DNA of 64,000 nucleotides, from the NCBI RefSeq assembly GCF_029958905.1, contig NZ_CP124614.1, positions 1,116,001 through 1,180,000 of the forward strand, written 5' to 3'. Below are positions 1-14,198 of the stretch, piece by piece (position 1 is the first letter of the stretch; every line of letters starts with the position of its first letter). The translations under genes were made by a program, and so were the position numbers. A model generated the notes under the pieces. That model was not told where the DNA came from. It worked only from the letters and a program-made list of their open reading frames with translations, and did not search any database. Source of the stretch: Vibrio sp. YMD68 (GTDB lineage Bacteria > Pseudomonadota > Gammaproteobacteria > Enterobacterales > Vibrionaceae).

Positions 1-1
1 T

Positions 2-858
2 ACGCCAGTAGCGTTAGGCAGGACGGTGATTACCGCGACGAAAGATGGCGAGCAAGCGTCCACGGTGAGCTTTGAGGTGACGGCTGCTGAATTGGTGTCT
101 ATCCAATTAGAGCCATCAGTAACGTCGACGCCATTAGGTCAATCGGTTCAGATGATAGCCACGGGTGAATACACGGACGGTACAACGGCTGAGTTAACAG
201 GTGTTTCTTGGGTATCAACAACACCAGCGACAGCGACGGTATCTAACTCTGGTCTTGTTACGCCAGTAGCGTTAGGCACGACGGTGATTACCGCGACGAA
301 AGGTGGCGAGCAAGCCTCCACGGTGAGCTTTGAGGTAACGGCTGCTGAATTGGTGTCTATCCAATTAGAGCCATCAGCAACGTCGACGCCACTGGGTCAA
401 TCGGTTCAGATGATAGCTACGGGTGAATACACGGACGGTACAACGGCTGAGCTAACGGGCGTGTCTTGGGTGTCATCAACACCAGCGACAGCGACGGTAT
501 CGAACTCTGGTCTTGTTACGCCAGTGTCTGTGGGCACAACGGTGATTACCGCAACGAAAGATGGCGAGCAAGCCTCCACGGTGAGCTTTGAGGTAACGGC
601 TGCTGAATTGGTGTCTATCCAATTAGAGCCATCAGTAACGTCGACGCCACTGGATCAATCGGTTCAGATGATAGCCACGGGTGAATACACGGACGGCACA
701 ACGGCTGAGCTAACGGGCGTGTCTTGGGTGTCTTCAGTACCAGCGACAGCGACGGTATCGAACTCAGGTCTTGTCACGCCAGTGTCTGTGGGCACAACGG
801 TGATTACCGCGACGAAAGATGGCGAGCAAGCGTCCACGGTGAGCTTTGAGGTGACGGC
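2..858 (+). repeat. In-frame 258-bp tandem repeats encoding Ig-like domains
   Basis: The sequence starting ACGCCAGT recurs at 2, 260, 518 and 776, exactly 258 bp apart, giving 86-residue units. Copies are nearly identical at DNA level (scattered single changes such as GTAGCGTTAGGC versus GTGTCTGTGGGC). This implies recent duplication or ongoing homogenisation, and probably variable copy number. The array starts before the window. Confidence 0.95.
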
Positions 859-1279
859 GATAGATACAGTCAAATTAGGTAATTTAACATTTCACCGCGC
901 TTTAGCAAAAGCTGAAGCGGTAGCCAAGGGTTTCACTCCAGATGGTTGGCACACAGTAGGTGGAAGTACCGGCCCGGATGGGATGGTGGTTTCAGCTTTT
1001 AACTGGTCAAATGCTGATAATTTTTGTGAAAATGTAGAGATGGGTGGTTATTCAGACTGGCGCTTGCCAAGTCGTGATGAGCTTACTCAGCTTCAAGCTA
1101 GCACTCAGGCGGGTGTGTTCGTTGCCTTTGGTTGGCCGATTTACTACTCCTACTGGTCATCGACGCTAGACACCAGTTACACCGGTACCCGGCACTACAG
1201 CATCAGCCTCACCAATGGCTATGCGTTCAAGAACGGCGACTTGAGCAACAACTATGTTAGCTGCGTGCGTGCGGATTAA
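2..1279 (+). CDS. DGR target: Ig-like repeat surface protein with C-terminal DUF1566 domain (5' end outside window)
   Basis: The frame is open from the first bases, so the gene begins upstream; the GTG at 26 is internal. The visible part holds about 3.3 copies of an 86-residue repeat of bacterial Ig-like group 2 type (Y-T-D-G-T-T, S-G-L-V-T-P, T-V-I-T-A-T-K motifs). A domain of about 135 residues follows with LTFHRAL, FNWSNADNFC and DWRLPSRDEL, typical of DUF1566, ending WSST...CVRAD. The last 49 codons match the adenine-rich template at 2163-2300, and variable residues sit where the template has AAC/AAT codons. This identifies it as the diversified target of a DGR. Such proteins are usually exported ligand-binding proteins; the signal sequence and total repeat number cannot be seen. 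Ig repeats would act as a stalk presenting the variable lectin-like tip (inference). A terminator-like hairpin follows the stop. Confidence 0.9.
   Translation, partial: TPVALGRTVITATKDGEQASTVSFEVTAAELVSIQLEPSVTSTPLGQSVQMIATGEYTDGTTAELTGVSWVSTTPATATVSNSGLVTPVALGTTVITATKGGEQASTVSFEVTAAELVSIQLEPSATSTPLGQSVQMIATGEYTDGTTAELTGVSWVSSTPATATVSNSGLVTPVSVGTTVITATKDGEQASTVSFEVTAAELVSIQLEPSVTSTPLDQSVQMIATGEYTDGTTAELTGVSWVSSVPATATVSNSGLVTPVSVGTTVITATKDGEQASTVSFEVTAIDTVKLGNLTFHRALAKAEAVAKGFTPDGWHTVGGSTGPDGMVVSAFNWSNADNFCENVEMGGYSDWRLPSRDELTQLQASTQAGVFVAFGWPIYYSYWSSTLDTSYTGTRHYSISLTNGYAFKNGDLSNNYVSCVRAD
1127..1273 (+). other. DGR variable repeat (VR) with GC-rich IMH-like end
   Basis: This 147-bp stretch aligns codon by codon with the template repeat at 2163-2300. 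Invariant blocks include TTTGGTTGGCCG, TACTGGTCATCG, ACCAGT, AATGGC, AACTATGTT and the closing TGCGTGCGTGCG. By hand alignment about 19 of roughly 30 substitutions fall on template adenines (for example AAC to TAC, TAC, TCC, TTC, GGC, AGC). The rest are at non-adenine positions, and the VR has three extra codons (GGT ACC CGG region). The closing G/C/T-only stretch resembles an initiation-of-mutagenic-homing site. The VR ends two codons before the stop. Confidence 0.87.
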
Positions 1280-1312
1280 CATTTAACATTTAACATTTAA
1301 CATTTAACATTT
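1278..1312. repeat. Five tandem 7-bp repeats (AACATTT)
   Basis: Five perfect copies of AACATTT start at the stop codon of the DGR target gene and separate the variable repeat from the following hairpin. This is one of several short-unit arrays in the window. Confidence 0.95.
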
Positions 1313-1315
1313 ATC

Positions 1316-1342
1316 CCCGGCAGCTTGCTGCCGGGTGTTTTT
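1316..1342 (+). terminator. Perfect 9-bp GC-rich hairpin and T-run after the VR
   Basis: The arms CCCGGCAGC and GCTGCCGGG enclose a two-base loop and are followed by TGTTTTTA. It reads as a rho-independent terminator for the target gene. Known DGRs often carry a GC-rich hairpin or cruciform just downstream of the VR that stimulates retrohoming, so it may have both roles (inference). It lies about 40 bp past the IMH-like end, further than in the Bordetella phage. Confidence 0.85.
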
Positions 1343-1360
1343 ATTTTCAAGTGACAGTTA

Positions 1361-1918
1361 ATGAATATAGAGCAAAAGTTAGCACTGATAAAGAAAGAGG
1401 GCGGTCGTTACATAGTGTGCTTTAAGGAGGGGCTATTTGTTCGTTTCTATAATCAGTCGCTTTATTTATGCAATCAAGCACTTGTAGCGCGCAATCAAAA
1501 GGCATTATGCATTCGCAGTAAGCCCTTAAAAGTACTTGAAAACCAGTATGTAGTATCAGGAGGTTTTCCTCAAACGCATTTGATGAAAAAGCTAGGGGAG
1601 GCAGTAATTGATAAAGGCCAAGGGTGTTACTATATTGAGCATGCTTTTGAGTTGAGCGGTTATCAAAGTTGGTTTGTAAATAACGTGGCGCATGAAGAGT
1701 CTCGACTTGTCACTGAGAATGGTTGCTCCTTCGCTGCTAACCAAGCGGCCCAACAAAGCAGCCAAATTAACAATCACGATATCAGCGTAAAAATAACATC
1801 AGAATTGGTAAATAAAATAATTCTTATAGATTACTGGCATGCAACACCTTATGACATGATAAGTCTTTTGGCAGAATTAAAACGGCTTATTATTCAATTA
1901 ACGCCTAATGGAAAATAA
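1361..1918 (+). CDS. Small MutS-domain-I-like protein, probable DGR accessory (Msl-like)
   Basis: A 185-residue protein lying between the VR and the TR. Residues about 15-100 resemble the N-terminal mismatch-recognition domain of MutS. A strand-rich start (GGRYIVCFKEGLFVRFYN) sits where MutS has its phenylalanine-containing segment. The segment GGFPQTHLMKKLGEAVIDKG then parallels the MutS pattern AGVPxHxxxxYLxKLVxxG. No MutS ATPase or other domains are present. MutS-like small ORFs have been reported as DGR accessory genes, and the position supports this, but the similarity is from memory by eye. The C-terminal 80 residues are unassigned. The ribosome binding site is weak, and the gene begins about 20 bp after the upstream terminator. 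Confidence 0.62.
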   Translation: MNIEQKLALIKKEGGRYIVCFKEGLFVRFYNQSLYLCNQALVARNQKALCIRSKPLKVLENQYVVSGGFPQTHLMKKLGEAVIDKGQGCYYIEHAFELSGYQSWFVNNVAHEESRLVTENGCSFAANQAAQQSSQINNHDISVKITSELVNKIILIDYWHATPYDMISLLAELKRLIIQLTPNGK

Positions 1919-2162
1919 AGAGCAAGATGAATAGAGAGTTTTATTAAGGTAGGGGCTTTAGGGTAAAGCAGCTTAATGTGTATGTTGCGCTTAGTGTGGA
2001 TAAGTCAGTATCTGTTATCTGCCAAGCTGAAAAAGCGAGTGGCTAAGGCTTTTCGTTAAAGGCCCAGCGCGTTATCGGCACAACTCACACATTAATTGTG
2101 TTATAGAGGGGTGAATGTCGCGAGGCAGTAAACCGTTAAAAGAAGGTGTGCAAACATGTGCT
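1919..2162 (+). other. Leader region upstream of the DGR template repeat
   Basis: No convincing gene. The stretch contains several short complementary segments and ends with the start of a short open frame (ATG at 2115) that runs through the template. In DGRs the template is transcribed as a non-coding RNA with structured flanks, and this interval is the natural place for its promoter and 5' part (inference). Confidence 0.4.
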
Positions 2163-2300
2163 TTTGGTTGGCCGACGAACAACAACTACTGGTCATCGAC
2201 AACAAACACCAGTAGCAACCACTACAACGTCAACCTCAACAATGGCAATGTGAACAACAACAACGACAGCAACCACAACTATGTTGGCTGCGTGCGTGCG
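2163..2300 (+). ncRNA. DGR template repeat (TR)
   Basis: 138 bp matching the VR at 1127-1273. It is strikingly rich in AAC codons if read in the target frame (runs such as AACAACAAC and a conceptual peptide dominated by Asn), the hallmark of an adenine-mutagenised template. Both ends match the VR (TTTTGGTTGGCCGA at the start, TGCGTGCGTGCG at the end). It lies in the same orientation as the target gene. It is 9 nt shorter than the VR and differs from it at some non-adenine sites, so it may have changed since the last homing event. The open frame through it (2115-2375) is not believed to be a protein gene. Exact RNA ends are unknown. Confidence 0.87.
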
Positions 2301-2488
2301 GTGAACGCAAAGCCCCTACACTCAATAGAATTTAAGTTAGGTCTTTACGTGTTAATACGCAAAAAGGTGATTTAAGTTTAATGGAAGTATAATCGCTATT
2401 TTTAGGGATAAAATAAGTCTTTAAATGATTAAAATGGTGGTGATATAACGCTTTACGTAAACGAATGTGTTGTGCGTGACTTAGTAAG
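2301..2488 (+). other. Region between template repeat and IS5-type element
   Basis: AT-rich non-coding sequence directly 3' of the template. In intact DGRs the equivalent spacer carries structure needed for cDNA priming and leads to the reverse transcriptase gene. Here it is interrupted by the insertion sequence that starts at 2489. Confidence 0.4.
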
Positions 2489-3236
2489 GGCTTTGTTGCG
2501 TAATTCAATGGAACTAAATCCAGAGCCTACGATCTGATCAGTTACATCCACTATCTCTCGTAGCCTCATGCCTAAACCTCTTTACAAAACAACCAACTGG
2601 AAGCAATACAACCAATCACTCATTAATCGAGGCTCTCTGACCTTTTGGATTGATGAAGAGGCGATAAGCGGGTGGGCGCAAAGCAAACAGAATAAGCGCG
2701 GGAGGCCACGTCGATTCAGTGACTTAGCTATCACGACAGCGCTCATGGTAAAACGAGTTTTTTCTATGCCACTGAGAGCGCTGCAAGGATTTATCGACTC
2801 GGTATTTAGACTTGCCCATGTTCCATTGAGTTGTCCACATTACACCAGTATAAGCCGCCGAGCTAAGGAAGTTGAGGTTTCATTTAAAACCAAAACCAGA
2901 GGAGCAATACAACACCTGGCAATTGATGCCACTGGCCTCAAGGTTTATGGCGAAGGTGAATGGAAAGTCAAAAAACACGGGGCAGATGGCAAGCGGAGAG
3001 TTTGGCGAAAGCTGCATATTGCAGTCGATACAAGCACTCACGAGATCATTGCAGCCGAGCTAAGTTTATCGACGGTTACAGATGGAGAGGTCCTCCCGAA
3101 CTTACTGAAACAAACACGCCGAAGTATCCTTGAGGTGTCTGGTGATGGCGCTTACGACACGAGAGCGTGTCACGCTGCTATTAAGATTAAGCGAGCCGTT
3201 GCGCTTATTCCCCCAAGAGAAGGGGCACTGGCCTCA
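2489..3236 (+). mobile_element. Truncated IS5-family element (right end missing)
   Basis: The left end begins with GGCTTTGTTGCGTAATTC, which resembles the terminal repeats of IS5/IS903-type elements. It is followed 60 bp later by the transposase start. Element sequence stops near 3236, where the reading frame passes into a DUF1566 gene fragment. No right inverted repeat was found, so the element is a dead remnant left by deletion or recombination. Confidence 0.75.
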
Positions 3237-3275
3237 TTTTGGTTTGACCGAAAGTGCATACCATTATCAAGATAA
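2568..3275 (+). pseudogene. IS5-family transposase, 3'-truncated
   Basis: The protein starts MPKPLYKTTNWKQYN and contains an SRRAKEVEV region, the first catalytic Asp in AIDATGLKVYG and the second in SGDGAYDTRACH. It reaches IPPREGA and then runs into foreign sequence (about residue 223). Full-length relatives are about 300 residues and carry the catalytic Glu in the missing part, so the product should be inactive. The last 40 bp belong to the adjoining DUF1566 fragment in another frame. Confidence 0.85.
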
Positions 3276-3798
3276 TGATGAGAGTTACGCCATAGCGCCA
3301 GATGGGTTTACAGCGGTTATTTCAGACAACCAAGCCTATTTACCGTCTTGCCAGTCGTTTATTCAAGATAGTGGAGTTACATTCGATACTGTTAGTTTTG
3401 AAGGGCTTACATTCCATCGACCTCTGAGTGAGTCAGAAGCATTATCTTTAGCAATTGTACCTGATGAGTTAAAAACAGAAGACGGCTCTCGAGGGCCAAA
3501 AGATATGATAGTAAGTAAATTCAACTGGGATAATGCCAAAAGCTTTTGTGAAAGCAGCAATCATATGAATTTTGGGGATTGGCGGCTACCAGAATTAATT
3601 GAATTGGAGAGATTATTTAGCTCTACTAATGAGTTGGGTATGTACCTTAAATATAATTGGGCTACAGATCGTGGGTTTTGGTCGAGTACACCAAGCCAAG
3701 GTGGCATGTATCATTATATGTTTTTAAGTAGTGGTAATAAGTATGAAACTAACAAACGCAATCCTCAGTATGTTACATGCATTCGTTCAGATACTTAG
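3237..3798 (+). pseudogene. 3' fragment of a second DUF1566 (DGR-target-like) gene
   Basis: The open frame crosses from the IS5 transposase into a protein of about 185 residues ending in a DUF1566 domain: LTFHRPLSE, FNWDNAKSFC, DWRLPELIEL, FWSSTPSQGG and a final TCIRSDT. It parallels the first target at protein level. Its DNA uses AT-rich codons and does not match the template closely, so it is a paralogue or former target rather than a current VR. The 5' part, including any signal peptide, was lost at the IS5 junction. It ends about 50 bp before the IS66 element. Confidence 0.75.
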
Positions 3799-3845
3799 AT
3801 GTGAAGATTTTCTTCTTTTCGTTTATACACTTTATTACAACTGCC

Positions 3846-5389
3846 GTAACTATTCACCCGCGAGCTATTGACGACGGTTTACGATAAAAACGGGGGCGTT
3901 TGATAATCCACTTTGAGCATATGATGTTCGACGATTTCACGCAGCCATTTATACGCGGAGATCTGTTGAAGTTTAGCTGTCTCGATAAGCGAGAACATCC
4001 GCTCACGGAACAGGTCTCCTCGATATGAACGAGTTACATAACAGCACTTTCTCATCAAGATGTAATTTCGGAGAACTCGCTCGGCAGCGTTATTTGTTAA
4101 CGGACATTTGGAGTCATCCATAAAACGCCAGACCATAGCATCGTCAGCGATGAGATTACGGCACCGACCTCGATATCGTTTAGAGCATTGATAACTGCCT
4201 AGTTTAAGCCAATGAAGCCAGCTCTGTCTTAATCGCCGGAGTCGACGATAATATTGGTTTTCGCTAATTTTGCTCTCAATATATCGATGGTGGCCCCTGA
4301 ATACGCTATGAGCGACTAATGCGAGTTTTTCTCCTATTTTTTGATTTCCAGGGCAAACACTCTCCTCGATAGCTATAACGTTTCTCAAGATGTGTGCCCA
4401 GCATAACTGTCGTTTGGAGTCATCAATATATTTATAGGCTGAGTATTGGTCAGTCACTAAAAGGTGTGAGACAGCCTCACCGAGCAGTCGTTTGGCAGCA
4501 TGTTGATTTCTACCGCTATTAATCTGGAAAAAGGCTACGTCATTACTCAGTGCAGCCCACATCCAACGTTTATCATTATTACGTTGATGTGAGGTTTCAT
4601 CAGCCATAATCAGTTGAGAGGCTTTGACGGTTTCATGAATTTGTACATGAGTATCAGCTAGATATTCAGTCACTCGTCCCTGTACCGCTGATATCGCACC
4701 AGTAGAGAAGTTCAGCTGAAAGACATCTTTCAGCATAGACTGTATTTTACCTATACTTTGATGATGCTGCGTTGCTTGGATTGCGATAAAGCTATGCAGA
4801 TTTGGGCCCATCTGAACGTCAGGCACATACTCTGGAAGCTCAGCTTGGTGTTTATCACCACACCATGAGCATTCGCCTTTGAAGACTTGATGTTCAACAA
4901 GCGTGTATGAGATATCGGGTAAATCAAAAATTTGGTGTCGTTTATAAGGTTTTCGATTTGGAATCACGCAACCACCGCAGTGGCATGTTTTATTTGGTAA
5001 GTATTGCTCAACCGAGGCACTATCTTCTACAGGATGAAGTAGTCGGCGATGGCCTTTATGTCCGGGTTGAGCTCCTTGCTTTTTTCCAGATTTCTTCCGA
5101 TTAGGCGAAGGTATTCTTGGCTTTGTTGTGCAAAGGCTGCTGTGATGATAGTACAGAAGAGTTTCGACTATTTTGATTTAGCCGGTCTTCAAGCTCTGCC
5201 AGCTTATTCCACAAAAAGTGGATGATATCTTTCGCCTCTTCAGGCGAATCGAAATCTGGCGGTGGAGGTAATGTTTTCTTATTCATACCTCCAGATTGCC
5301 ATCACAAAAAGATCACTCAAGTCGAATATGGGATCAAGTTAACTAGGTCACAGAACTTTGGTGTCAACACCTCGTGGGTGAACAGTTAC
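3846..5389 (-). mobile_element. IS66-family insertion sequence (single-transposase type)
   Basis: Imperfect terminal inverted repeats (17 of 19 match) bound the element: GTAACTATTCACCCGCGAG at 3846-3864 and the complement of CTCGTGGGTGAACAGTTAC at 5371-5389. Ends beginning GTAA are characteristic of IS66. It carries only a tnpC-like transposase, as in the ISBst12 subgroup. The 8 bp on each side (CAACTGCC and GGTTTGAC) differ, so there is no target-site duplication. This suggests a deletion or recombination next to the element after insertion. The right end lies inside the DGR reverse transcriptase gene. Confidence 0.85.
3879..5286 (-). pseudogene. IS66-family transposase with internal frameshift
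   Basis: The first 61 codons (from 5286) give the IS66 N-terminus with the helix LWNKLAELEDRLNQNSRNSS and stop at 5101. The following frame, open from about 5108 to 3879, continues with RKKSGKKQGAQPGHKGH, a zinc-binding C-x2-C segment, and the catalytic core: Asp in IMADETSH, Asp in VTDQYSAYK, Glu in NNAAERVLRN. A one-base frame change near 5105-5115 separates the halves. Whether it is a mutation or a programmed shift cannot be told; no classic slippery heptamer is evident, so a disrupting mutation is likelier. Confidence 0.85.
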
Positions 5390-6425
5390 GGTTTGACCCC
5401 ATAAATCTTGGCCAGAAACCTCTGCTGGGTATGTGTTCGGCATTGATATGATTATCTTCGAGCAATGCATTAAAGAAGACTAGTCTTTTCTTTAGGTTTT
5501 TTAAAGTGTTGTTTCGAATGTGCTTGTAGTGAGGATAAATAATATAACCTAAATAGTTAGCACCGAGACTAACTGGTTGAAGTGCTTGCTTTGTTGGGTG
5601 GAGGCTTAACTTTAAATTGCTATCAAGAAAGTGAGCAATTTTATTTTTCCAATTGATTAAGGTGGGGCGCTCATTAGAAAATAATATAGGGTCATCCATA
5701 TACCTGACATAACCTTTAACTTTTAAATCATGCTTTATGAAGTGGTCTAATGAATTAAGGTAAAAGTTGGCAAACATTTGGCTTGTGACACTGCCTATGG
5801 GTAAACCGATTCCATTAGGACTAAAGGTTAATAATTTATGCTTGGGAATGGTAATTAGCAGTGTTCGCTGGCCGCTGAGAGTAAAAGACTCCCTTGCTGT
5901 ATCATGGTTAATAATGCGATCGACTAAGTAAATAATGGTGTATTTCCTCAAGGGCGACCAATCCGCTTTTCGCTCAATTAGCTCATATAATTTTGCTTTA
6001 AGTCTATTTTTATCTATGTGATTAAAAAAGCTTTGAATATCAAGCTGTAAGTAAAATTTATGAGTGGGTTGACGCATGATTTTCTGAACTTTATTAATAG
6101 CGGCTAATGTCCCCTTTTTTTCACGACTTGCATAAGTGTCATCAATTAATACACGGTTCATTAAGGGTTTAAACTGATTGGCTAGCCATAAATGTACTAT
6201 TCTGTCACTAAAAGAAGGTGCATAAATTTCGCGTAATTTAGGGTCCTTAACAGCAAAGCGCGTATAATTTTGTGGTTTATATTTTTCTGTTAGTATGTTT
6301 TCACTTAAATCACGACAGATTGAAAGGATATCAGGTTTTGCGATAGCTTTTTGTATGCTTCTACTACAAAGGTATGCACAGTGTAAAAGTTCGTGCTCTA
6401 ACTTTTTAACTTGGTGTTTTTTCAT
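5364..6425 (-). CDS. DGR-type reverse transcriptase, C-terminus replaced by IS66 end
   Basis: The protein carries reverse-transcriptase motifs in order: YLQLDIQSFFNHID (Asp129), GLPIGSVTSQ at 207-216 (the SQ-ending motif 4 typical of DGR enzymes), YMDD at 242-245, LQPVSLGANYLGYI near 282-295. Retron and group II enzymes lack this combination. Codons up to about 345 are native; the last eight come from the IS66 inverted repeat that begins at 5389. The SYLGHxxHA-type tail I expect in full DGR enzymes is missing, so the thumb is truncated although the catalytic core is intact. Its job would be error-prone copying of the template RNA opposite adenines. It is on the strand opposite to target and template, divergent from avd with a 37-bp gap. 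Activity is uncertain. Confidence 0.88.
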   Translation of the reverse strand: MKKHQVKKLEHELLHCAYLCSRSIQKAIAKPDILSICRDLSENILTEKYKPQNYTRFAVKDPKLREIYAPSFSDRIVHLWLANQFKPLMNRVLIDDTYASREKKGTLAAINKVQKIMRQPTHKFYLQLDIQSFFNHIDKNRLKAKLYELIERKADWSPLRKYTIIYLVDRIINHDTARESFTLSGQRTLLITIPKHKLLTFSPNGIGLPIGSVTSQMFANFYLNSLDHFIKHDLKVKGYVRYMDDPILFSNERPTLINWKNKIAHFLDSNLKLSLHPTKQALQPVSLGANYLGYIIYPHYKHIRNNTLKNLKKRLVFFNALLEDNHINAEHIPSRGFWPRFMGSNRNCSPTRC

Positions 6426-6462
6426 AAGTTAAACCGATAATTTAAAATGAAGGTTAATTATA

Positions 6463-6843
6463 ATGAAACAGCAAACAAGACACATTAAAATATTTGATGA
6501 TATAATGCAATTATATAAAGTATATATTAATTGTTATCAAAATTTCTCTAAAGGTTTCCGTTATACGACTGGAAAAGCAATATATGACGAGCTCACATTA
6601 TGTATGAAAATGATATCGAAAATCAATTATTTAATGCGCGAAGGGGCTGAGACACTCCAATCAATGTTTTTGGAAGCGATGGCATCGTTACAAGTTATCG
6701 AGTCGTATCTTATACTTGCTTGGGAGTTAAAATATATCTCCCATGCTAAGGCTTCCGAACTTAAAGAGAAACTAACTACGATTCAAATGCAACTTCATGG
6801 TTGGTTTAGGTGGTATAAAAAGAATTATACGGTCAAAAATTAA
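6463..6843 (+). CDS. avd: Avd-like DGR accessory variability determinant
   Basis: A 126-residue, almost entirely helical protein with basic character, of four-helix-bundle type: a helix near FDDIMQLYKVYINCYQNF, then KGFRYTTGKAIYDELTLCM, a long central helix, and a C-terminal HGWFRWYKK. Length and the KGFRYTTG-type element fit Avd, the pentameric partner that binds the reverse transcriptase and template RNA in DGRs. It sits 37 bp from the reverse transcriptase gene in divergent orientation, which is unusual since avd and RT normally run together. A GAAGG sequence 9 bp upstream of ATG can serve as ribosome binding site. The gene looks intact. Confidence 0.82.
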   Translation: MKQQTRHIKIFDDIMQLYKVYINCYQNFSKGFRYTTGKAIYDELTLCMKMISKINYLMREGAETLQSMFLEAMASLQVIESYLILAWELKYISHAKASELKEKLTTIQMQLHGWFRWYKKNYTVKN

Positions 6844-7073
6844 TAAATACTACAGTTCGCTGTCACCCTCAACAGGTCTAAATCTGGCGATTTATCGCTC
6901 TTTTCAGGTAGGTCGATACCAATAATAAACTTATATATCTTATCGTTGTTAGTTAAAAATTAATGATGCAGTTTTGATACAATAAAAATTTTTAAATAAG
7001 GATAATAAACATTACAAGGATGGTTGTAGGTAATCAATGATAGTCTTTAAACACCAGATTTAGGTATGTTTTG

Positions 7074-7889
7074 ATGAACGTAAAATTAACAACGTGTGTC
7101 AGGGTTTTTGTAGCGTTATTCTCTCTAAATTCTTCTTATATGCAAGCTGATACATTTGACTATGTTACGGTTAGTTTAGATAAACCCTTCTATTTTTTTG
7201 ATAGCAGCAGTAAAAAAGATAGAAACATGGGTATTGTGGTCACTAACGAGTCCAAAAATGTATCAGGTGTCAGCATCTCTTTGTATGGGTCATCTATTGT
7301 GGATGAAAAGGTCATGTTTAACCTAGAAGAAAACAATCTTGATATCGATCTGTATCCCAAAGCATTCATTTTACCCCCAGCTAGGAAGCTTTCAATTAAA
7401 GCGATCCCATATATTGATAACAGCCAAAGTGAAAGCATCTATCGAATAAGAGCTTTACCCAAATCACCGAAGTCGCTTATAAAAGAAAATCCTAAATTAG
7501 CACAAACCCTCGCTAGTTCAAAAGATGACCTACTAGATGATGACTCTTCAATAGGAGAAGTAATGGTAGGGATTGGTAATGGCAGTATTATTATTGTTCA
7601 GCCATTCAATAGTGTGGATGTCAAGTCAATAAATCTAGTTACCAATAATGAAAATGAATTAAAAATTATTAATGATGGCGATTACTCTATACAAGTAAAA
7701 AATATGGTAATTAATAAAAATGTTAGAGCTAAAGAATTTGTTGTATTGGGGAAAAAATCCAAAATAAAGAAAGTTGATGTGGGGGTAAATCCAATATCCA
7801 CCATATCATTTGAAGACCAGCTTGGTAATAATTATTTATATAAATGTAATGAAAAAGGATGCACTAATGAAAATAAAAAACACGGCTAA
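7074..7889 (+). CDS. Fimbrial chaperone, alternate (CS1-type) chaperone-usher family
   Basis: A secreted protein of about 271 residues with an N-terminal hydrophobic signal ending near residue 25 (Y-M-Q-A-D). The body is beta-rich with two immunoglobulin-like halves, as in periplasmic pilus chaperones (strand pattern RNMGIVVTNES, then a basic-residue segment PPARKLSIKAIPY). It is the first gene of a four-gene run with pilin, usher and tip adhesin, which matches the alternate chaperone-usher order. Sequence similarity to known chaperones is weak and context carries much of the call. The ATG at 7074 was chosen over an adjoining TTG. Its 3' end overlaps the pilin gene by 23 bp. The AT-rich composition is shared with the operon. 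Confidence 0.68.
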   Translation: MNVKLTTCVRVFVALFSLNSSYMQADTFDYVTVSLDKPFYFFDSSSKKDRNMGIVVTNESKNVSGVSISLYGSSIVDEKVMFNLEENNLDIDLYPKAFILPPARKLSIKAIPYIDNSQSESIYRIRALPKSPKSLIKENPKLAQTLASSKDDLLDDDSSIGEVMVGIGNGSIIIVQPFNSVDVKSINLVTNNENELKIINDGDYSIQVKNMVINKNVRAKEFVVLGKKSKIKKVDVGVNPISTISFEDQLGNNYLYKCNEKGCTNENKKHG

Positions 7890-8421
7890 AATTTTGGCTT
7901 TTACAATGCTTATTTCTAGTGGTTTTGCTGTACAAGCGACGACCATTAAACAGAGTATTGATATAACTGCCGAAATTCTAGACTTAAATTCAACATTCAA
8001 AGTACTGCCTACTGCTGGCAGCTGGCCAGTAAATACATTGAGGTTTGTTTGGGATGACAATACAAGTCAATTTCAAAGCCCCGCCGGAATTGGTTTCACT
8101 GTTGAATCTTCAGCAGATGTTACGGTTGCATTAACATCGTCTTCAGACCTTTATTCAGGGAGCTCATTAATTCCTGTTGATGTGTCAGTTCAAAATACAG
8201 CAGGTAATGGTATTGATGTTACCTCAGTCACTATGTTGCCAGAAACTCTATATGAAACCACTCAGAACCCAACAGGTGAAAAAGCGGCATTTCAACTAAA
8301 TTTTGCTGCTGACAGCAATAATATGCTGGATTCGAATGGTGACCCTATCACTCCGGGTAGCCGACCTGAACCAGGAACTTATTCGGGGAGCGTGAATCTA
8401 GTGTTTGAATCCAACATTTGA
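7867..8421 (+). CDS. CS1/CFA-I-type major fimbrial subunit
   Basis: A 184-residue protein with signal peptide (LAFTMLISSGFAVQA) and a mature start TTIKQSIDITAEI. It continues with LRFVWDDNTSQFQ and ends GTYSGSVNLVFESNI, the pattern of CFA/I-family pilins (PF04449), in which the N-terminal strand is donated to the neighbouring subunit. An internal start at 7867 is chosen over the upstream in-frame ATG at 7810 because it begins exactly at the signal peptide. A strong 11-bp hairpin follows the stop, as often found between abundant pilin and low-abundance usher genes. Confidence 0.85.
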   Translation: MKIKNTAKILAFTMLISSGFAVQATTIKQSIDITAEILDLNSTFKVLPTAGSWPVNTLRFVWDDNTSQFQSPAGIGFTVESSADVTVALTSSSDLYSGSSLIPVDVSVQNTAGNGIDVTSVTMLPETLYETTQNPTGEKAAFQLNFAADSNNMLDSNGDPITPGSRPEPGTYSGSVNLVFESNI

Positions 8422-8424
8422 AAA

Positions 8425-8452
8425 GTTAACTCGGCCAATCAGCCGAGTTAAC
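8425..8452 (+). promoter_or_regulatory. Intercistronic hairpin between pilin and usher genes
   Basis: A perfect 11-bp stem (GTTAACTCGGC / GCCGAGTTAAC) with a 6-base loop just after the pilin stop. No T-run follows, so it is more likely an mRNA-stabilising or attenuating structure that gives high pilin and low usher expression than a full terminator. Confidence 0.7.
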
Positions 8453-8486
8453 ATCAAACTCAGTTAATTTAACTTCAAGGTTAATT

Positions 8487-10724
8487 ATGTTATTACTCGC
8501 TTTATCATTAACTTTATTATCGGTTGGATATAGTGATACTAGCTCTGCGTCATTAATATCCAATGATATTAATGACTCTATTCAATCTGAGAGTGGTGAT
8601 AAAGCATACCCGTTAAATTTACTCATGAATAATAACGAATTTGATAATCTAATTTATTTAGATAGTGATTTAAATTTTGTTTCGGATTCAGATAGTTTAA
8701 CGTTAACTCACTCCATTGAAGCACTGAATTCTTTGGATTTTAAACTTTTTTTAAATTTTTCTTGCAAAGAAAGTGATATGTCATTTTGCGCTTTATATCA
8801 AAGCTTTGATTTATCATTCGATTTTTATAGTGCATCAGTTCAACTCTATTATAAAAAAATGCAACATGAAAAAACATCGGAAAATACTAATGCATTATTA
8901 ATGCTTGAAAACAATCTATTGATTTCTGAATCTAAATCTAATAATTTTGATTCATATTATTCGTATGCAATCAACACAGATTTGGGTTTGGGATTAACTG
9001 ATAACTCATACATAACAAGTTCTCTACGATACTCTAACAATGATGATTTCTTATTAGATGATTTGTTTTATAATCTTAATTTAGACTCACATGCTTATAC
9101 CATAGGTTATTCAAGCAACACAAATTACTTCAAAGCTTATAATGGTGAGTCTATGTATCAATTTTCATTAGCTAATAAATCTAATGCATCAAATTTTAGC
9201 TTACCTATCACAACAATTTATGAAACTTCTAGTGATGTCGGTATCATTGAAATTTACGATCGAAATGGCGACTTAAAGTCAGCATCACAATTAATTCGAG
9301 GAATTAATGAGATTGTTCTTGATCCTTCAATCGTTGAGAGTGATATTGCAACAGTTAAGTTAATAGTAGATGGAGAGGTTGTGAGTGAGAATAGTTATTT
9401 TATTGGAGAGAGTAGTGATTTTTTAGACTCATTTAATTATAAATTTGTAACTGGTAAAGTCATTAATCAATACGGTGATGATTCTGTTTTTATTGCGAGC
9501 GAACTAAGTTTGAGTCAATCAAATTTGAATTTTAAAATAATACCACAGCATGATTACTACTCAATTGAAGCTGCTCACTTCGCGTTAAATGCACTAAACA
9601 TACGAGGAAACTATACAATTTATGATGATGTATGGACTTATGATTTCGGCCTTTCTTCATATAAAAAATTAAAAAATAATAATTTAGGCATATCAGTTTA
9701 CAATTCAAAAAAACAAGATTCAAAGAGTCGCATCAATACAAATATATATTTAAAACATTATTTTAATCGAACGACACTTGCGTCTATTTCGCATCAATCA
9801 AGATTTGAAGATTCGCATAGTATAAGTAACCAAATTATAAGTGGTATTAATGGAAGCAATGCGTTCTTTAAAACTAATTTTGACTGGTCTTTAACCTTGT
9901 CTCATGACTTTTTTGATAACAGTTCATTTATAGGTGCAAGCGTTTCATTAGATTTCGATAAGATTTTTTACGGCAAATCTATTAGACCTAAAGCAAGTTT
10001 TAATTATATGAATGGTAATAAAAATACCTTGATTGCAACTGATATCGCTAATGAAGATAATAGTTTTGTTATTTCTCCTGAAGTAAATATTTCTGATGAT
10101 TATAATGCGATTGGTGTTAATGTTTATAATGTCAATAATGTTTATGAGTTTAATGGGTTTTATTCTCAATCAAGTCGACTTAGAAATCAATCATATACGT
10201 TAAGAAGCAGTAGCTATGTTACTAAAGAGGGGGTTTTTAATTCATCACAATCTGAACCATCTTTAGTTTTTTTTGCTGATGAACAAATATCGAATAATGC
10301 GTCTATCAATAATAGTTATCATAATGATGATAAAGTACATTATATAAACCCAACAGGAAAAACTAATATTTCACCAATGCTTACTGCTAATCAAAATCTC
10401 GAAGAGCAATCAGTAATACTTGGTAAGTATCGTTCTACTAAATATGAAATTAATAAGGATAATGACACTGGGGTTAATGTGTTAGGAAGAATAATCAATA
10501 ACAATATTCCAGGTGATAGATATCAACTTATTAATCATTTATCTAGTTCAGTTAGCAATGGTAGTGGTTACTTCGAGTTATTGGTTAGCAAACTAGAGCC
10601 TCAAATAATTATTACCGATAACGAAGGAGAGCACTGCACCACACTGAATGTCACTGATTTTGTTGCTGATGTTAATAATATCTCACAGCCTCTATATTTA
10701 GGTAGAATAGAATGCGCATACTAA
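8487..10724 (+). CDS. Outer-membrane usher of the CS1-type fimbria
   Basis: A 745-residue exported protein with an N-terminal hydrophobic segment and a large beta-strand-rich, Ser/Asn-rich body. A short C-terminal domain ends RIECAY with a Cys pair (GEHCTTL...IECAY). Size, position between pilin and tip gene, and the segment VGIIEIYDRNGDLKSA (like the plug/strand region of ushers) indicate the CfaC/CooC/TcfC usher class, which forms the secretion pore and orders subunit assembly. AAGG 7 bp upstream supports the ATG at 8487. It overlaps the next gene by 13 bp, implying translational coupling. Strongly AT-rich codon use suggests acquisition from elsewhere. Confidence 0.8.
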   Translation: MLLLALSLTLLSVGYSDTSSASLISNDINDSIQSESGDKAYPLNLLMNNNEFDNLIYLDSDLNFVSDSDSLTLTHSIEALNSLDFKLFLNFSCKESDMSFCALYQSFDLSFDFYSASVQLYYKKMQHEKTSENTNALLMLENNLLISESKSNNFDSYYSYAINTDLGLGLTDNSYITSSLRYSNNDDFLLDDLFYNLNLDSHAYTIGYSSNTNYFKAYNGESMYQFSLANKSNASNFSLPITTIYETSSDVGIIEIYDRNGDLKSASQLIRGINEIVLDPSIVESDIATVKLIVDGEVVSENSYFIGESSDFLDSFNYKFVTGKVINQYGDDSVFIASELSLSQSNLNFKIIPQHDYYSIEAAHFALNALNIRGNYTIYDDVWTYDFGLSSYKKLKNNNLGISVYNSKKQDSKSRINTNIYLKHYFNRTTLASISHQSRFEDSHSISNQIISGINGSNAFFKTNFDWSLTLSHDFFDNSSFIGASVSLDFDKIFYGKSIRPKASFNYMNGNKNTLIATDIANEDNSFVISPEVNISDDYNAIGVNVYNVNNVYEFNGFYSQSSRLRNQSYTLRSSSYVTKEGVFNSSQSEPSLVFFADEQISNNASINNSYHNDDKVHYINPTGKTNISPMLTANQNLEEQSVILGKYRSTKYEINKDNDTGVNVLGRIINNNIPGDRYQLINHLSSSVSNGSGYFELLVSKLEPQIIITDNEGEHCTTLNVTDFVADVNNISQPLYLGRIECAY

Positions 10725-11860
10725 TAGTATTAGTTTTATTTTCTCGGCTTTGCTTTGCCCAAGTTTATATATCAAATTCTGATAGTGGCTTTCAAATTAA
10801 AACTTTAGGTAATGCAGACGGTGTTGCGATAGGAATCAGGAAAGATGCAAATCTATCACCAGTCTTTTTAGAATGGGGTGCTGATTGTTCAGCACCATCT
10901 AATGACTATGTATGTTATCTAAATTCTTCAGATGACAAAGTTCCTTTTATTGTCGATAGCGCTTCGACTAGTTTCACTATTGAACATACAACAGGTACTG
11001 GTTATGGGACTGGTTATGTAACAGGAGAAAATATATCTTTTTCTTTACACTCTTATGCAAACACTATCACACGTAATTATAGAATTGAATTTCCTTCGCT
11101 GATTTCACCGCTTGCATTTAGTGTCGATAGCCCTAATTGTACTGCTCAATGGGTAGCTAGAAGAGGTATCGAGCAGGGACAAGTGCTTAGTTTACTCATG
11201 GGTGAAAGATGGAAATCCTGTAACATCAAGTTTGATGGTCTTTCATTAAATAATGATTTAGTAGGGAAGATCGGTATTGGTTCTGTTAGGTGGCGTTATG
11301 ACCCAGAAATATATAATGTCCTTAGTTCTGGTTTGTGGAATGTAACCGCACCTTATAGCGATAGTTTTTCTTTAATTCAATATAACGGTCAAATAGAGTC
11401 CCGTTCAATAATCATATCGTCAGTGGTTCTTAATACGAATATTGATATCCTAGGATATTTAGATTTTTCGCTTGTAGGTAAAACTGATGTTGATCTTACA
11501 TTAGACCCTAATAAAGATGCGGTTCATCGTTTGTGGTATGATTTACAAACTAATGGAGATAAAGCATCAATTTCGCTCCTTTGTGACCAGCCTCAAAACA
11601 GTAAATGTACCATTAGTAATGGTAACGCACTTTTGGAATTTAGTACTGAAATACTTTTTTCTAGATCTGGTAGTAAGGGCAGTAGACTTGAACCTTTGTT
11701 ACCATTTTTTCTAGACCATTCTAATGGGTTATTAATTAACAAGAAAGTAGAAGGTAGCTTTCTTTTAAAATTTAATAGATTAGATATTCAAAAAGTAGCA
11801 TCAGATGCGAATAAAGTTTTTTCTGGTGAACTTATTTTTTCAGTTGATGTTGAATTTTAA
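10712..11860 (+). CDS. Tip adhesin/minor subunit of the CS1-type fimbria
   Basis: A 382-residue protein with signal peptide ending LCFA-Q. It has an N-terminal region rich in aromatic residues and Cys pairs (about residues 55-68 and 143-170) and a C-terminal pilin-like half ending VFSGELIFSVDVEF. This two-domain size is that of CfaE/CooD-type tip adhesins (PF07434). They initiate fibre assembly through the usher and bind host receptors. It is the last gene of the operon, and the downstream 90 bp contain only AT-rich sequence. Confidence 0.82.
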   Translation: MRILIVLVLFSRLCFAQVYISNSDSGFQIKTLGNADGVAIGIRKDANLSPVFLEWGADCSAPSNDYVCYLNSSDDKVPFIVDSASTSFTIEHTTGTGYGTGYVTGENISFSLHSYANTITRNYRIEFPSLISPLAFSVDSPNCTAQWVARRGIEQGQVLSLLMGERWKSCNIKFDGLSLNNDLVGKIGIGSVRWRYDPEIYNVLSSGLWNVTAPYSDSFSLIQYNGQIESRSIIISSVVLNTNIDILGYLDFSLVGKTDVDLTLDPNKDAVHRLWYDLQTNGDKASISLLCDQPQNSKCTISNGNALLEFSTEILFSRSGSKGSRLEPLLPFFLDHSNGLLINKKVEGSFLLKFNRLDIQKVASDANKVFSGELIFSVDVEF

Positions 11861-11949
11861 TTATTAAGTTTATTTACTAAATAAAAACAATTATTATATA
11901 TTAATTGTATTTTTTATCATTTATTATGCTGATTAGGGTTAAATAGATC

Positions 11950-12354
11950 GTGCGTAGTGTCAAATACTATTTGTTGATTTTTACGGTATTGTTTTTTGCC
12001 GATGGTTTCGTTGTTAAAAAAAATCATGCCTATGATAAGAAAATGTGTTACGAAAATAGACATGGCGTGCCCCCTTTGATAGATTATGAAATACTTTGGT
12101 TTACTCTAAGCAATAATATTGTAAAAGGAGAGTTTAATTGGTTACCCGCTTTAAAGGATAGACGAATAGGCTCATTCAATGGGCATAAAATTAATGATAA
12201 TTCATTAGATGTTGTTTATTCTTTTTATCAAGAAGGATTCAATAGCCAAATTAAACTAACAATAAAATTTGACGAGAATCAGGTTATGATTGAAGGAGAA
12301 AGGCCTTCTTTAGGTTTGAACAGAACTCTCGCTCGGGTTAATTGTATATCTTAA
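11950..12354 (+). CDS. Small secreted protein of unknown function
   Basis: A 134-residue protein beginning at a GTG with a hydrophobic N-terminal segment (YYLLIFTVLFFADGF), a likely signal peptide or anchor. The rest has alternating hydrophobic strands and two Cys residues (C44-like in KKMCYENRHG, and C near the end), which may form a disulfide. I do not recognise a family. It follows the fimbrial genes in the same orientation and shares their AT-rich composition, so it may be an accessory of the island. The upstream spacer is 89 bp. Confidence 0.55.
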   Translation: MRSVKYYLLIFTVLFFADGFVVKKNHAYDKKMCYENRHGVPPLIDYEILWFTLSNNIVKGEFNWLPALKDRRIGSFNGHKINDNSLDVVYSFYQEGFNSQIKLTIKFDENQVMIEGERPSLGLNRTLARVNCIS

Positions 12355-12623: not shown

Positions 12624-14198
12624 ATGGTATCGACCTTATGTGAAAAAATGATAAAAAACTCCATTAAATTAAGTCATTACGATTTAACAGAAGAAGATAT
12701 CTTTATAAATATTCTGAACTCTATAGAAGCTGTTGTATGTGTTAAGGATGTCCTGGGGAACCATATATTTGTAAATGACTGTTATCTATCGACAGTTGGA
12801 GTTAAATTACATGATGTTATCGGAAAAAACGATAACGAGATATTTCGTTGTTTCCCAGAGACTGCAAAAGCAATTATAGAGATAGATGAGCATGTAAAGC
12901 GTACAAAAGTTAAAAAAATTTTCCAAGAATCAGTACCAACAGCGAATGGAGAAATACGGCACTTTAAAACAGCAAAGACGCCTCTAGTTATTAATGATAT
13001 GGTCATTGGCGTGGTCTGTTTGGCTGTTGACATAACTGAAAGGGTAAACGCGGAAACGCGGCTTAAAGAAATATCACTTTTAAAAGCACATATTTTATCG
13101 AAAATGACCCATGAGATTCGAACTCCTCTCAATGCTATCATAGGATTTTCAGATCTGATTTTAAACAACGATAAAAATAAATTGGAAGCTAAGAATGATA
13201 CATTGAGTTTATTAAAACACATTAATTTGGCATCAAAACACTTGGTAGATGTTGTTAACGATGTACTCGATATGTCGAAGATTGATGCTAATAAAATCGA
13301 AATAGAAATGAAAAGTTTCAATATCGAACAGTTAGTAAAAGATACAACTATTATCAATCAATCCCTAGCTGATGAAAAAGAAATTACACTAAAACATAGT
13401 CTACAAGGTTTTAAAAATAGCTTTCGAGTTGGAGACTCAACAAAGTTATCACAAATATTGGTTAATTTGGTTAATAACGCTCTTAAGTTTACAAAAAAAG
13501 GTGGAGAAGTTTTACTTCGCGTAAAGGCTTATAGTAACGGTAATGTAGTCAGATTTACTGTGGTTGATAACGGCATAGGTATAGCTAAAGAAAATCAAAA
13601 TAAAATATTTAATATTTTCACACAGGAAAATAATTCTATTAGTCGGGAATTTGGCGGGACAGGATTAGGCCTATCAATATCTTCCGGTTTGGTTAAGTCG
13701 TTAGGGGGTCACCTGAAAGTAAAAAGCCTTGAGAGTGTAGGTAGCATATTCTCATTTAAAATTGGGTTAGATGTTGATCAAAATGTCAAAAAAAAACATC
13801 CTATTCACATAGATAGAAAGTCCTTAACTTGTTTAATCAACAAACGATGTTTATTAGTCGAAGATTTTCCATTAAATCAAAAAGTAGCTTCAATGTATTT
13901 AGAACAAGTAGGTATAATAGTCGATTATGCCCATAATGGTATCGAAGCGTTAGCTAAATTAAATGAAAACCAATATGACGTTGTATTGATGGATATTCAA
14001 ATGCCTATTATGGATGGATTAGAAGCAACAAGAATATATAGGGAGAATAATAATGATGACATTATAATCGCTTTGACCGCAAACGTAACGACTGAAAACG
14101 TTAATAAATGTTATGATGTAGGATGCAACGATTTCATATCCAAGCCATTTGATAAAGATCTTTTATTTAAAACATTAATTAAGTGGTTATCGTTATGA
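12624..14198 (+). CDS. Cytoplasmic PAS hybrid sensor histidine kinase with receiver domain
   Basis: A 524-residue protein. Residues about 25-145 form a PAS domain (VKDVLGNHIFVND, VCLAVDITER). A HisKA domain follows with phospho-acceptor His163 in KMTHEIRTPLN. The ATPase domain has N-box LVNNALKF (about 282-289), G1 VDNGIGIA and G2 EFGGTGLGLS. A C-terminal receiver (about 407-522) carries the phospho-Asp457 in VLMDIQMP and Lys in SKPFDK. No transmembrane segment is visible, so it senses a cytoplasmic signal or one relayed by another protein. There is no partner response regulator nearby and no HPt domain, so its output is unknown. AAAGGA lies just upstream of the ATG. Confidence 0.93.
   Translation: MVSTLCEKMIKNSIKLSHYDLTEEDIFINILNSIEAVVCVKDVLGNHIFVNDCYLSTVGVKLHDVIGKNDNEIFRCFPETAKAIIEIDEHVKRTKVKKIFQESVPTANGEIRHFKTAKTPLVINDMVIGVVCLAVDITERVNAETRLKEISLLKAHILSKMTHEIRTPLNAIIGFSDLILNNDKNKLEAKNDTLSLLKHINLASKHLVDVVNDVLDMSKIDANKIEIEMKSFNIEQLVKDTTIINQSLADEKEITLKHSLQGFKNSFRVGDSTKLSQILVNLVNNALKFTKKGGEVLLRVKAYSNGNVVRFTVVDNGIGIAKENQNKIFNIFTQENNSISREFGGTGLGLSISSGLVKSLGGHLKVKSLESVGSIFSFKIGLDVDQNVKKKHPIHIDRKSLTCLINKRCLLVEDFPLNQKVASMYLEQVGIIVDYAHNGIEALAKLNENQYDVVLMDIQMPIMDGLEATRIYRENNNDDIIIALTANVTTENVNKCYDVGCNDFISKPFDKDLLFKTLIKWLSL

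Follow-up and report, generated by a model that had tools for sequence, protein, structure and literature searches.

Does the set of genes and repeats at the start of a 64,000-nucleotide stretch of Vibrio sp. YMD68 (the window; positions 1116001-1180000 of contig C2 in a 3-contig, 4.85-Mb genome) form a diversity-generating retroelement (DGR), and can it still rewrite the surface protein beside it? In DGRs a reverse transcriptase (RT) together with Avd copies the RNA of a template repeat (TR) with errors wherever the template has an adenine, and the resulting cDNA takes the place of a variable repeat (VR) at the end of the target gene. The presence of a DGR, as observed in a first-pass annotation of the window, is confirmed; the interpretation given there is partly supported, as the identity of the element, the adenine bias and a stalk of changeable length stand, while a working copy of an undescribed type does not. 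Two features had been missed, namely that RT lies opposite to TR, which makes this an inverted DGR, and that the RT gene is split. Very probably, the element in the window is an inverted DGR from a proteobacterial clade that no longer diversifies its targets, its RT gene being split by DNA of IS5 and IS66 insertion sequences (IS), and that has an unbroken relative on a Tn3-family transposon in the same genome. The features are collected in Table 1.

Table 1. Features of the retroelement and the DNA inserted into it (window positions)
Feature	Positions	Strand	Remarks
Target gene, 3' part	1..1279	+	258-bp Big_2 Ig-like repeats, then Lcl_C (DUF1566) tip
Variable repeat VR2	1123..1274	+	From repeat comparison with TR
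Hairpin after VR2	1316..1335	+	8-bp G+C-rich stem, 4-base loop CTTG; z -3.4
185-aa open reading frame (ORF) between VR2 and TR	1361..1918	+	33% identical to 163-aa ORF at the same place in the plasmid DGR
Template repeat TR	2159..2301	+	Rich in adenine (34% A); its reading resembles a degenerate Lcl_C tip
RT gene, 3' end	2332..2487	-	Similar to RT tails of relatives; stop codon 30 nt from TR end
IS5-family element	2488..3275	+	Transposase 3'-truncated, 215/289 model positions matched; left border inferred from end of RT similarity
Fragment of third Lcl_C gene	3290..3798	+	Start inferred
IS66-family element	3845..5389	-	Transposase ORFs split; borders set by comparison with plasmid-borne IS66 copies
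RT gene, 5' part	5390..6425	-	345 aa; SQ and YMDD motifs; RVT_1
Avd	6463..6843	+	Divergent from RT; PHROG 3206 'Avd protein of DGR', E 8e-11

Repeats, target genes and enzyme

The two repeats, bordered nearly as first annotated (1127-1273 for VR, 2163-2300 for TR), are related as direct repeats of 80% identity between 1123-1177 and 2159-2213 and of 77% between 1179-1274 and 2206-2301, and VR2 ends 5 nt before the last base of its gene, i.e. at the 3' end of the target. The entire target has a length of 1123 aa; its gene begins about 2.1 kb upstream of the window start, which leaves only the 3' part inside the window. Its Lcl_C domain scores above the Pfam cut-off, nine copies of the 258-bp Ig repeat with 84-98% identity to the reference copy bear out the near-identical repeats noticed at first, and the N terminus, read from the translation, appears lipobox-like. 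A second target gene upstream, with 449 aa, Lcl_C and a VR of its own (VR1), places VR1 at a distance of 7.3 kb from VR2. The Lcl_C tip was modelled with a pLDDT of 87 and a pTM of 0.82, and had no sequence match among PDB entries.

The differences between template and variable repeats carry the adenine bias characteristic of DGRs. VR1 is changed at 24 of the 48 template adenines compared with 2 of the 95 other bases (p 6e-12), and VR2, in a gapped comparison which includes a 9-base insertion in VR2, at 19/48 versus 12/95 (Fisher p = 3e-4). One of the two non-adenine differences of VR1, a G to A change near the 3' end, is shared with VR2. As a control, the stretch 3640-3795 of the third Lcl_C fragment differs from TR at 24/48 adenines and 46/95 other bases (p 0.5); being devoid of adenine bias, it was rejected as a current VR. 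A hairpin with the same 8-bp stem and 4-base loop as after VR2 follows VR1 (z -3.8), whereas in the hairpin after the VR of the unbroken relative, on contig C3, the stem is longer and the loop comprises 6 bases. These structures could be comparable to the hairpin/cruciform of DGR targets; alternatively, they could act as terminators. A scan of positions 900-7000 against Rfam gave no match at E <= 1, and the stretch after TR folds no better than shuffled sequences in the window (z -0.5) or in the C3 copy (z 0.3).

The enzyme belongs to the same type. It matches PF00078 (E 7e-17) and contains the motifs GLPIGSVTSQ and YMDD, of which IGSVTSQ fits the DGR pattern (I/V/L)GxxxSQ; the best solved relative of the plasmid RT homologue is 8ub7, 'Reverse transcriptase' (E 3e-33), which we take to be the BPP-1 DGR enzyme. 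In an RT tree of 98 rows (quick IQ-TREE, branch support by SH-aLRT only), 88 DGR-like rows, the window RT among them, are set apart from seven group II and two retron rows with an SH-aLRT of 91, in agreement with the expectation of the first-pass annotation. That a defence or group II type RT merely lies beside an Lcl_C family whose members resemble each other through gene duplication is a most improbable explanation: PADLOC and NCBIfam models for DRT, retron and group II RTs do match the enzyme, with group II at the top of NCBIfam (99.9 bits), but all seven NCBIfam RT matches stay below cut-off, the strong adenine bias at VR1 is absent from the third Lcl_C fragment, and Avd is present, although below the curated cut-offs of bAvd (Pfam) and NF033474 (NCBIfam). 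A non-DGR RT was accordingly rejected on the sub-cut-off family matches and the tree.

A reverse transcriptase gene in two pieces

The ORF at 5364-6425 ends in IS66-derived codons and is not a complete RT gene. Matches of relatives to the 5' part stop at 5391-5460, and their RT tails align to the minus strand at 2487-2371 or 2481-2344, beside TR; the tail of Yersinia hibernica is 61.5% identical over 39 aa (E 3e-12), that of the C3 RT 48.7% (E 1e-8) and that of Aeromonas caviae 32.6% (E 4e-6). Between the two pieces, which lie about 2.9 kb apart, approximately 24 RT codons are absent as judged from the match ends; the position of the RT stop was counted by hand from the translation. The window element is thus a damaged member of the DGRs, and the view that it is a working copy is not supported. 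As the RT gene is split by IS5/IS66 DNA, this copy has probably lost its activity, barring help in trans. In the undamaged state, TR RNA would have been copied by RT with Avd, with errors at template adenines, and the cDNA would have replaced the VR at the end of the target gene, thereby changing the Lcl_C tip of a predicted surface-displayed protein, a putative binding tip on an Ig-repeat stalk; the IS5/IS66 DNA interrupting the RT gene would stop such diversification by the window copy.

An assembly artefact, or a split limited to this isolate of a species which overall has a working chromosomal DGR, is rather unlikely. Both RT pieces are free of stop codons, the adjoining DGR parts are at their expected places and recently truncated RTs are reported in section 8 of PMC3521204; yet the IS5 and IS66 stretches each match nothing but themselves in the 3-contig genome, which makes a misjoin driven by repeats unlikely, and about 24 RT codons are missing between the pieces.

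In a set of 58 proteins at E <= 1e-60, which includes the window RT, its closest neighbour is a partial Vibrio vulnificus record at 62%, followed by proteins of at most 53% identity, and an RT match at E <= 1e-30 was obtained in 6 of 226 other genomes of the genus. A distant third RT of the same genome is found on another contig (C1:949326-949625), in a 529-aa open frame, with 28% identity and E 1.5e-6.

Inverted layout and transposon-borne relatives

In the window, TR, VR and target share one strand and RT is encoded on the complementary one; the order is target lipoprotein gene(s), small ORF and TR, which faces the convergent RT gene tail to tail, followed by the divergent Avd gene. Orientation was scored by a scan for ungapped adenine-biased repeats. 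A repeat pair was found in 17 of 24 loci, with TR opposite RT in 16 (14 distinct places, L037/L043 and L039/L044 being duplicate records of one place each) and on the same strand in one (L041); the scan gave no TR/VR pair in the other seven. Among 66 loci with RTs below 39% identity to the window enzyme (L056-L121), TR is on the RT strand in 45 and opposite in one (L087), with no pair in 20. On the tree, the window RT falls within a 19-row clade (SH-aLRT 99) whose 16 scored rows all have TR opposite RT (L038, L042 and L050 are unscored); these 16 rows, window included, require one change of state and the 46 same-strand rows two, with L087 left out of both groups. The clade spans Vibrio, Shewanella, Yersinia, Budvicia, Cedecea, Aeromonas and Rhodoferax. 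In 12 inverted loci, the distance from TR end to RT stop is -18 to +81 nt in 11 and 1204 nt in L026, where an IS30 lies between; in L054 the TR end as measured is the limit of the scanned stretch, beyond which the repeat apparently extends. IS elements were rejected as the cause of the inversion, since unbroken relatives show the identical layout.

Two loci of the survey stand apart. L087, a Planctomyces DGR outside the clade, has TR apparently opposite RT (18/19 mismatches at the template base), possibly through a second, separate inversion. L047, on a metagenome-assembled contig titled Flavobacteriales, has an RT identical to the Shewanella baltica plasmid RT, by transfer or, more likely, by a binning error.

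The unbroken relative in the same genome lies on a contig of 168 kb, C3, which is regarded as a plasmid in view of the plasmid records matched by this DGR. The relative has the same layout, with a target of 1411 aa containing thirteen 261-bp repeats, a 163-aa ORF, TR, an open RT of 434 aa which is 50% identical to that of the window, and an Avd of 138 aa with 37% identity. Within C3:140000-166000 (L033, L004), a Tn3-family transposon of about 13.7 kb carries this inverted DGR and an OmpA-type gene; ORFs at L004:2400-3082 within it look like an IS630-type insertion. Fifteen RTs 93.7-97.5% identical to the C3 RT are found in plasmid records of V. parahaemolyticus, V. mediterranei, V. harveyi, V. 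vulnificus and S. baltica, although four V. parahaemolyticus plasmid RTs match in four pieces and hence may be broken. The stretch includes a Tn3 transposase in 7 of 12 plasmid records (L017, L018, L020, L021/L028, L030, L031 and L032); among the others, L029 and L027 reach the end of the record or are sparsely annotated, L019 has IS6 copies instead of a resolvase, and the two S. baltica stretches have a resolvase and no Tn3 transposase, in an alignment of only about 3.1 kb which falls short of the transposon end. PF01526 (E 9e-120) and PF00239 are matched by the V. vulnificus IncC copy and PF00239 by the C3 copy, which is 97% identical to the IncC copy over the transposase end. The transposon inverted repeat is present at the left end in 9/9 copies examined and at both ends in the 4/4 where both are seen; a 5-bp duplication accompanies two of these four (ATTTT for C3, TATTG for V. 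vulnificus plasmid 3 with the right border moved by one base) and is absent from two. Judged from transposase, resolvase, terminal inverted repeats and 5-bp duplication, the element carrying the plasmid relative is a Tn3-family transposon.

On their pattern of differences, the plasmid relatives appear to have been active recently. In 13 copies, three distinct TRs and eight distinct VRs occur, each VR differing from its own TR at 16-21 of 40-41 adenines and at 0-2 of 95-96 other bases; across the distinct VRs, 31/40 adenine columns are variable compared with 8/96 others (p 2e-15), some of the eight tracking TR differences. The adenine bias predicted by the first-pass annotation therefore holds in the window and across its plasmid relatives. 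Three plasmids of V. vulnificus GCU-01 share TR and RT and have three different VRs. Pairwise comparison over 3.16 kb, with an element of about 3.1 kb and a VR window of 166 nt, located all 22 differences between L029 and L030 in the VR window and none elsewhere in the element, with four bases beyond it. L021 differs from L029 at 20 and from L030 at 22 positions of the VR window, in both cases with a 7-base indel beside VR and an alignment-end gap, and at three and four bases beyond the element, respectively; V. harveyi L020 and V. vulnificus L029 differ at 23 positions of the VR window and three bases beyond the element. Target genes that share a VR differ by 261 bp (L017 and L018) or 783 bp (L020 and L032), so the stalk changes in length by whole 261-bp units, which supports the variable-length stalk foreseen in the first-pass annotation. 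The window element has thereby led to closely related transposon-borne DGRs whose VR variants apparently arose after the copies had spread; co-resident copies in one strain, the same over the stretch compared except for VR and one small indel, amount to a natural experiment on mutagenic retrohoming in a non-phage setting.

The unbroken C3 copy bears on the chromosomal one. There is a slim chance that the chromosomal TR and VRs continue to function, with RT and Avd supplied in trans from the plasmid-borne transposon: both genes are open on C3 and VR1 is still almost adenine-only, but the RTs and Avds of the two elements are only 50% and 37% identical, the 3' ends of the two TRs are unlike by eye and VR2 has drifted at non-adenines. 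Several observations weigh against the preferred reading. VR1 and TR are nearly free of non-adenine drift and neither RT piece contains a stop codon, a combination better explained by a very recent break, or by help in trans, than by an element long dead; the 12 non-adenine differences and the insertion of VR2 are unexplained by copying from the present TR; the quick RT tree gave long-branch warnings; and three V. harveyi NH-LM1 plasmids have one VR in common. The preferred reading remains that of an inverted DGR with a split RT gene which itself no longer diversifies its targets.

For the clade as a whole, the convergence of TR and RT across several genera implies that the 3' part of the template RNA is either antisense to the enzyme gene or ends before it. 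In BPP-1, the RNA segment between TR and RT is needed for priming. Tentatively, and with the odds rather against it, the tail-to-tail clade might constitute a mobile diversification cassette on a Tn3-family transposon, moving between plasmids and species and rewriting a surface lipoprotein after each jump, with a template RNA that continues past TR antisense through the last RT codons, so that the counterpart of the BPP-1 segment would sit inside the gene of the enzyme and tie template to enzyme. In seven distinct sequences from nine loci (two further loci are without full-length frame), synonymous variation affects 5 of the last 45 RT codons, the mean over codon windows being 10.5, and 36/389 windows are as low; 58/404 windows are as low for the last 30 codons and 139/374 for the last 60.

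Neighbouring genes and known systems

The 185-aa ORF between VR2 and TR has no NCBIfam, PADLOC or PHROGs family, and its sole Pfam match is Hce2 (E 0.01, below cut-off); the search for relatives returned only the protein itself at E <= 1e-3, and structure models are weak (best pLDDT 73, others 39-56). Extra copies of the hairpin and the start of this ORF flank the upstream target gene. In coordinates of L005, which joins the upstream stretch to the window (position 12002 is the window start), they lie at 4257-4412, 96% identical to the real place at 13317-13472, and at 6015-6170, 63% identical to 4257-4412, as though the target had been duplicated together with the ORF. Between the two target genes, a 927-aa ImpA-family M60 metalloprotease is encoded (L005:6698-9481; NF038322, 424 bits; PF13402). 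Adjoining Avd, an operon-like series of secreted-looking proteins extends over 7071-12354. The fimbrial genes first annotated here were not recovered: four proteins gave no Pfam fimbrial family at E <= 0.01, with one other match, P11_C, below cut-off, and five proteins gave no NCBIfam family at E <= 0.1. Near the inverted DGR of V. splendidus MOR1 (L043), a gene is weakly chaperone-like (E 0.012, below cut-off).

Among known systems, the DGR of Bordetella phage BPP-1 has TR, VR, RT, Avd and a G+C-rich hairpin with a 4-base loop after VR, as in the window; its TR is upstream of RT on the same strand, in contrast to the opposite strands of the window. According to Guo et al. (PMC3240598), the hairpin after VR is needed for efficient retrohoming in BPP-1, and the loop consensus of phage DGRs is GRNA, compared with CTTG in the window.

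That such a DGR is poorly described, as the first-pass annotation had supposed, is not supported. Inverted DGRs (group 4) of S. baltica OS155 pSbal02, Vibrio sp. RC586 and Photobacterium angustum S14 are presented in the available passages of PMC3521204 (Schillinger et al., 2012), where one inversion spread by transfer is suggested, transposase/integrase or Tn7-type sequences nearby are mentioned, and broken RTs are reported, recently truncated ones (section 8) and IS-truncated ones (Figure 4 legend) included. The window element resembles them in the encoding of RT opposite to TR, VR and target, in its long repeats and in its adenine substitutions, and the S. baltica copies, met here by sequence, have an RT 94.5% identical to the C3 copy and the same layout. 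It differs in an RT about 50% identical to the type and split by IS5/IS66, in two VR genes and in a divergent small ORF; a Tn3-family element with ends and target duplication, as in the relatives described here, is not mentioned in those passages. With the IS-truncated DGRs of that paper, as far as its available text describes them, the window has in common an RT interrupted by an insertion element with TR and VR kept, but it retains the 3' RT piece beside TR, some 2.9 kb from the 5' piece; it is a case of a DGR interrupted by IS insertion in which TR, the VRs and both RT pieces persist. The RT-inverted cassette class G5 of PMC6642488 likewise has RT inverted relative to TR and VR, and its accessible description states nothing on this clade or on tail-to-tail spacing. 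We found no publication describing a DGR carried by a Tn3-family transposon in the literature searched, outside which most subscription papers lie, and DGR and transposon terms are mentioned only separately in the part of PMC8987985 at hand. The inverted type was thus already known; what the window adds is the tail-to-tail layout throughout the clade and the transposon-borne, apparently recently active relatives.

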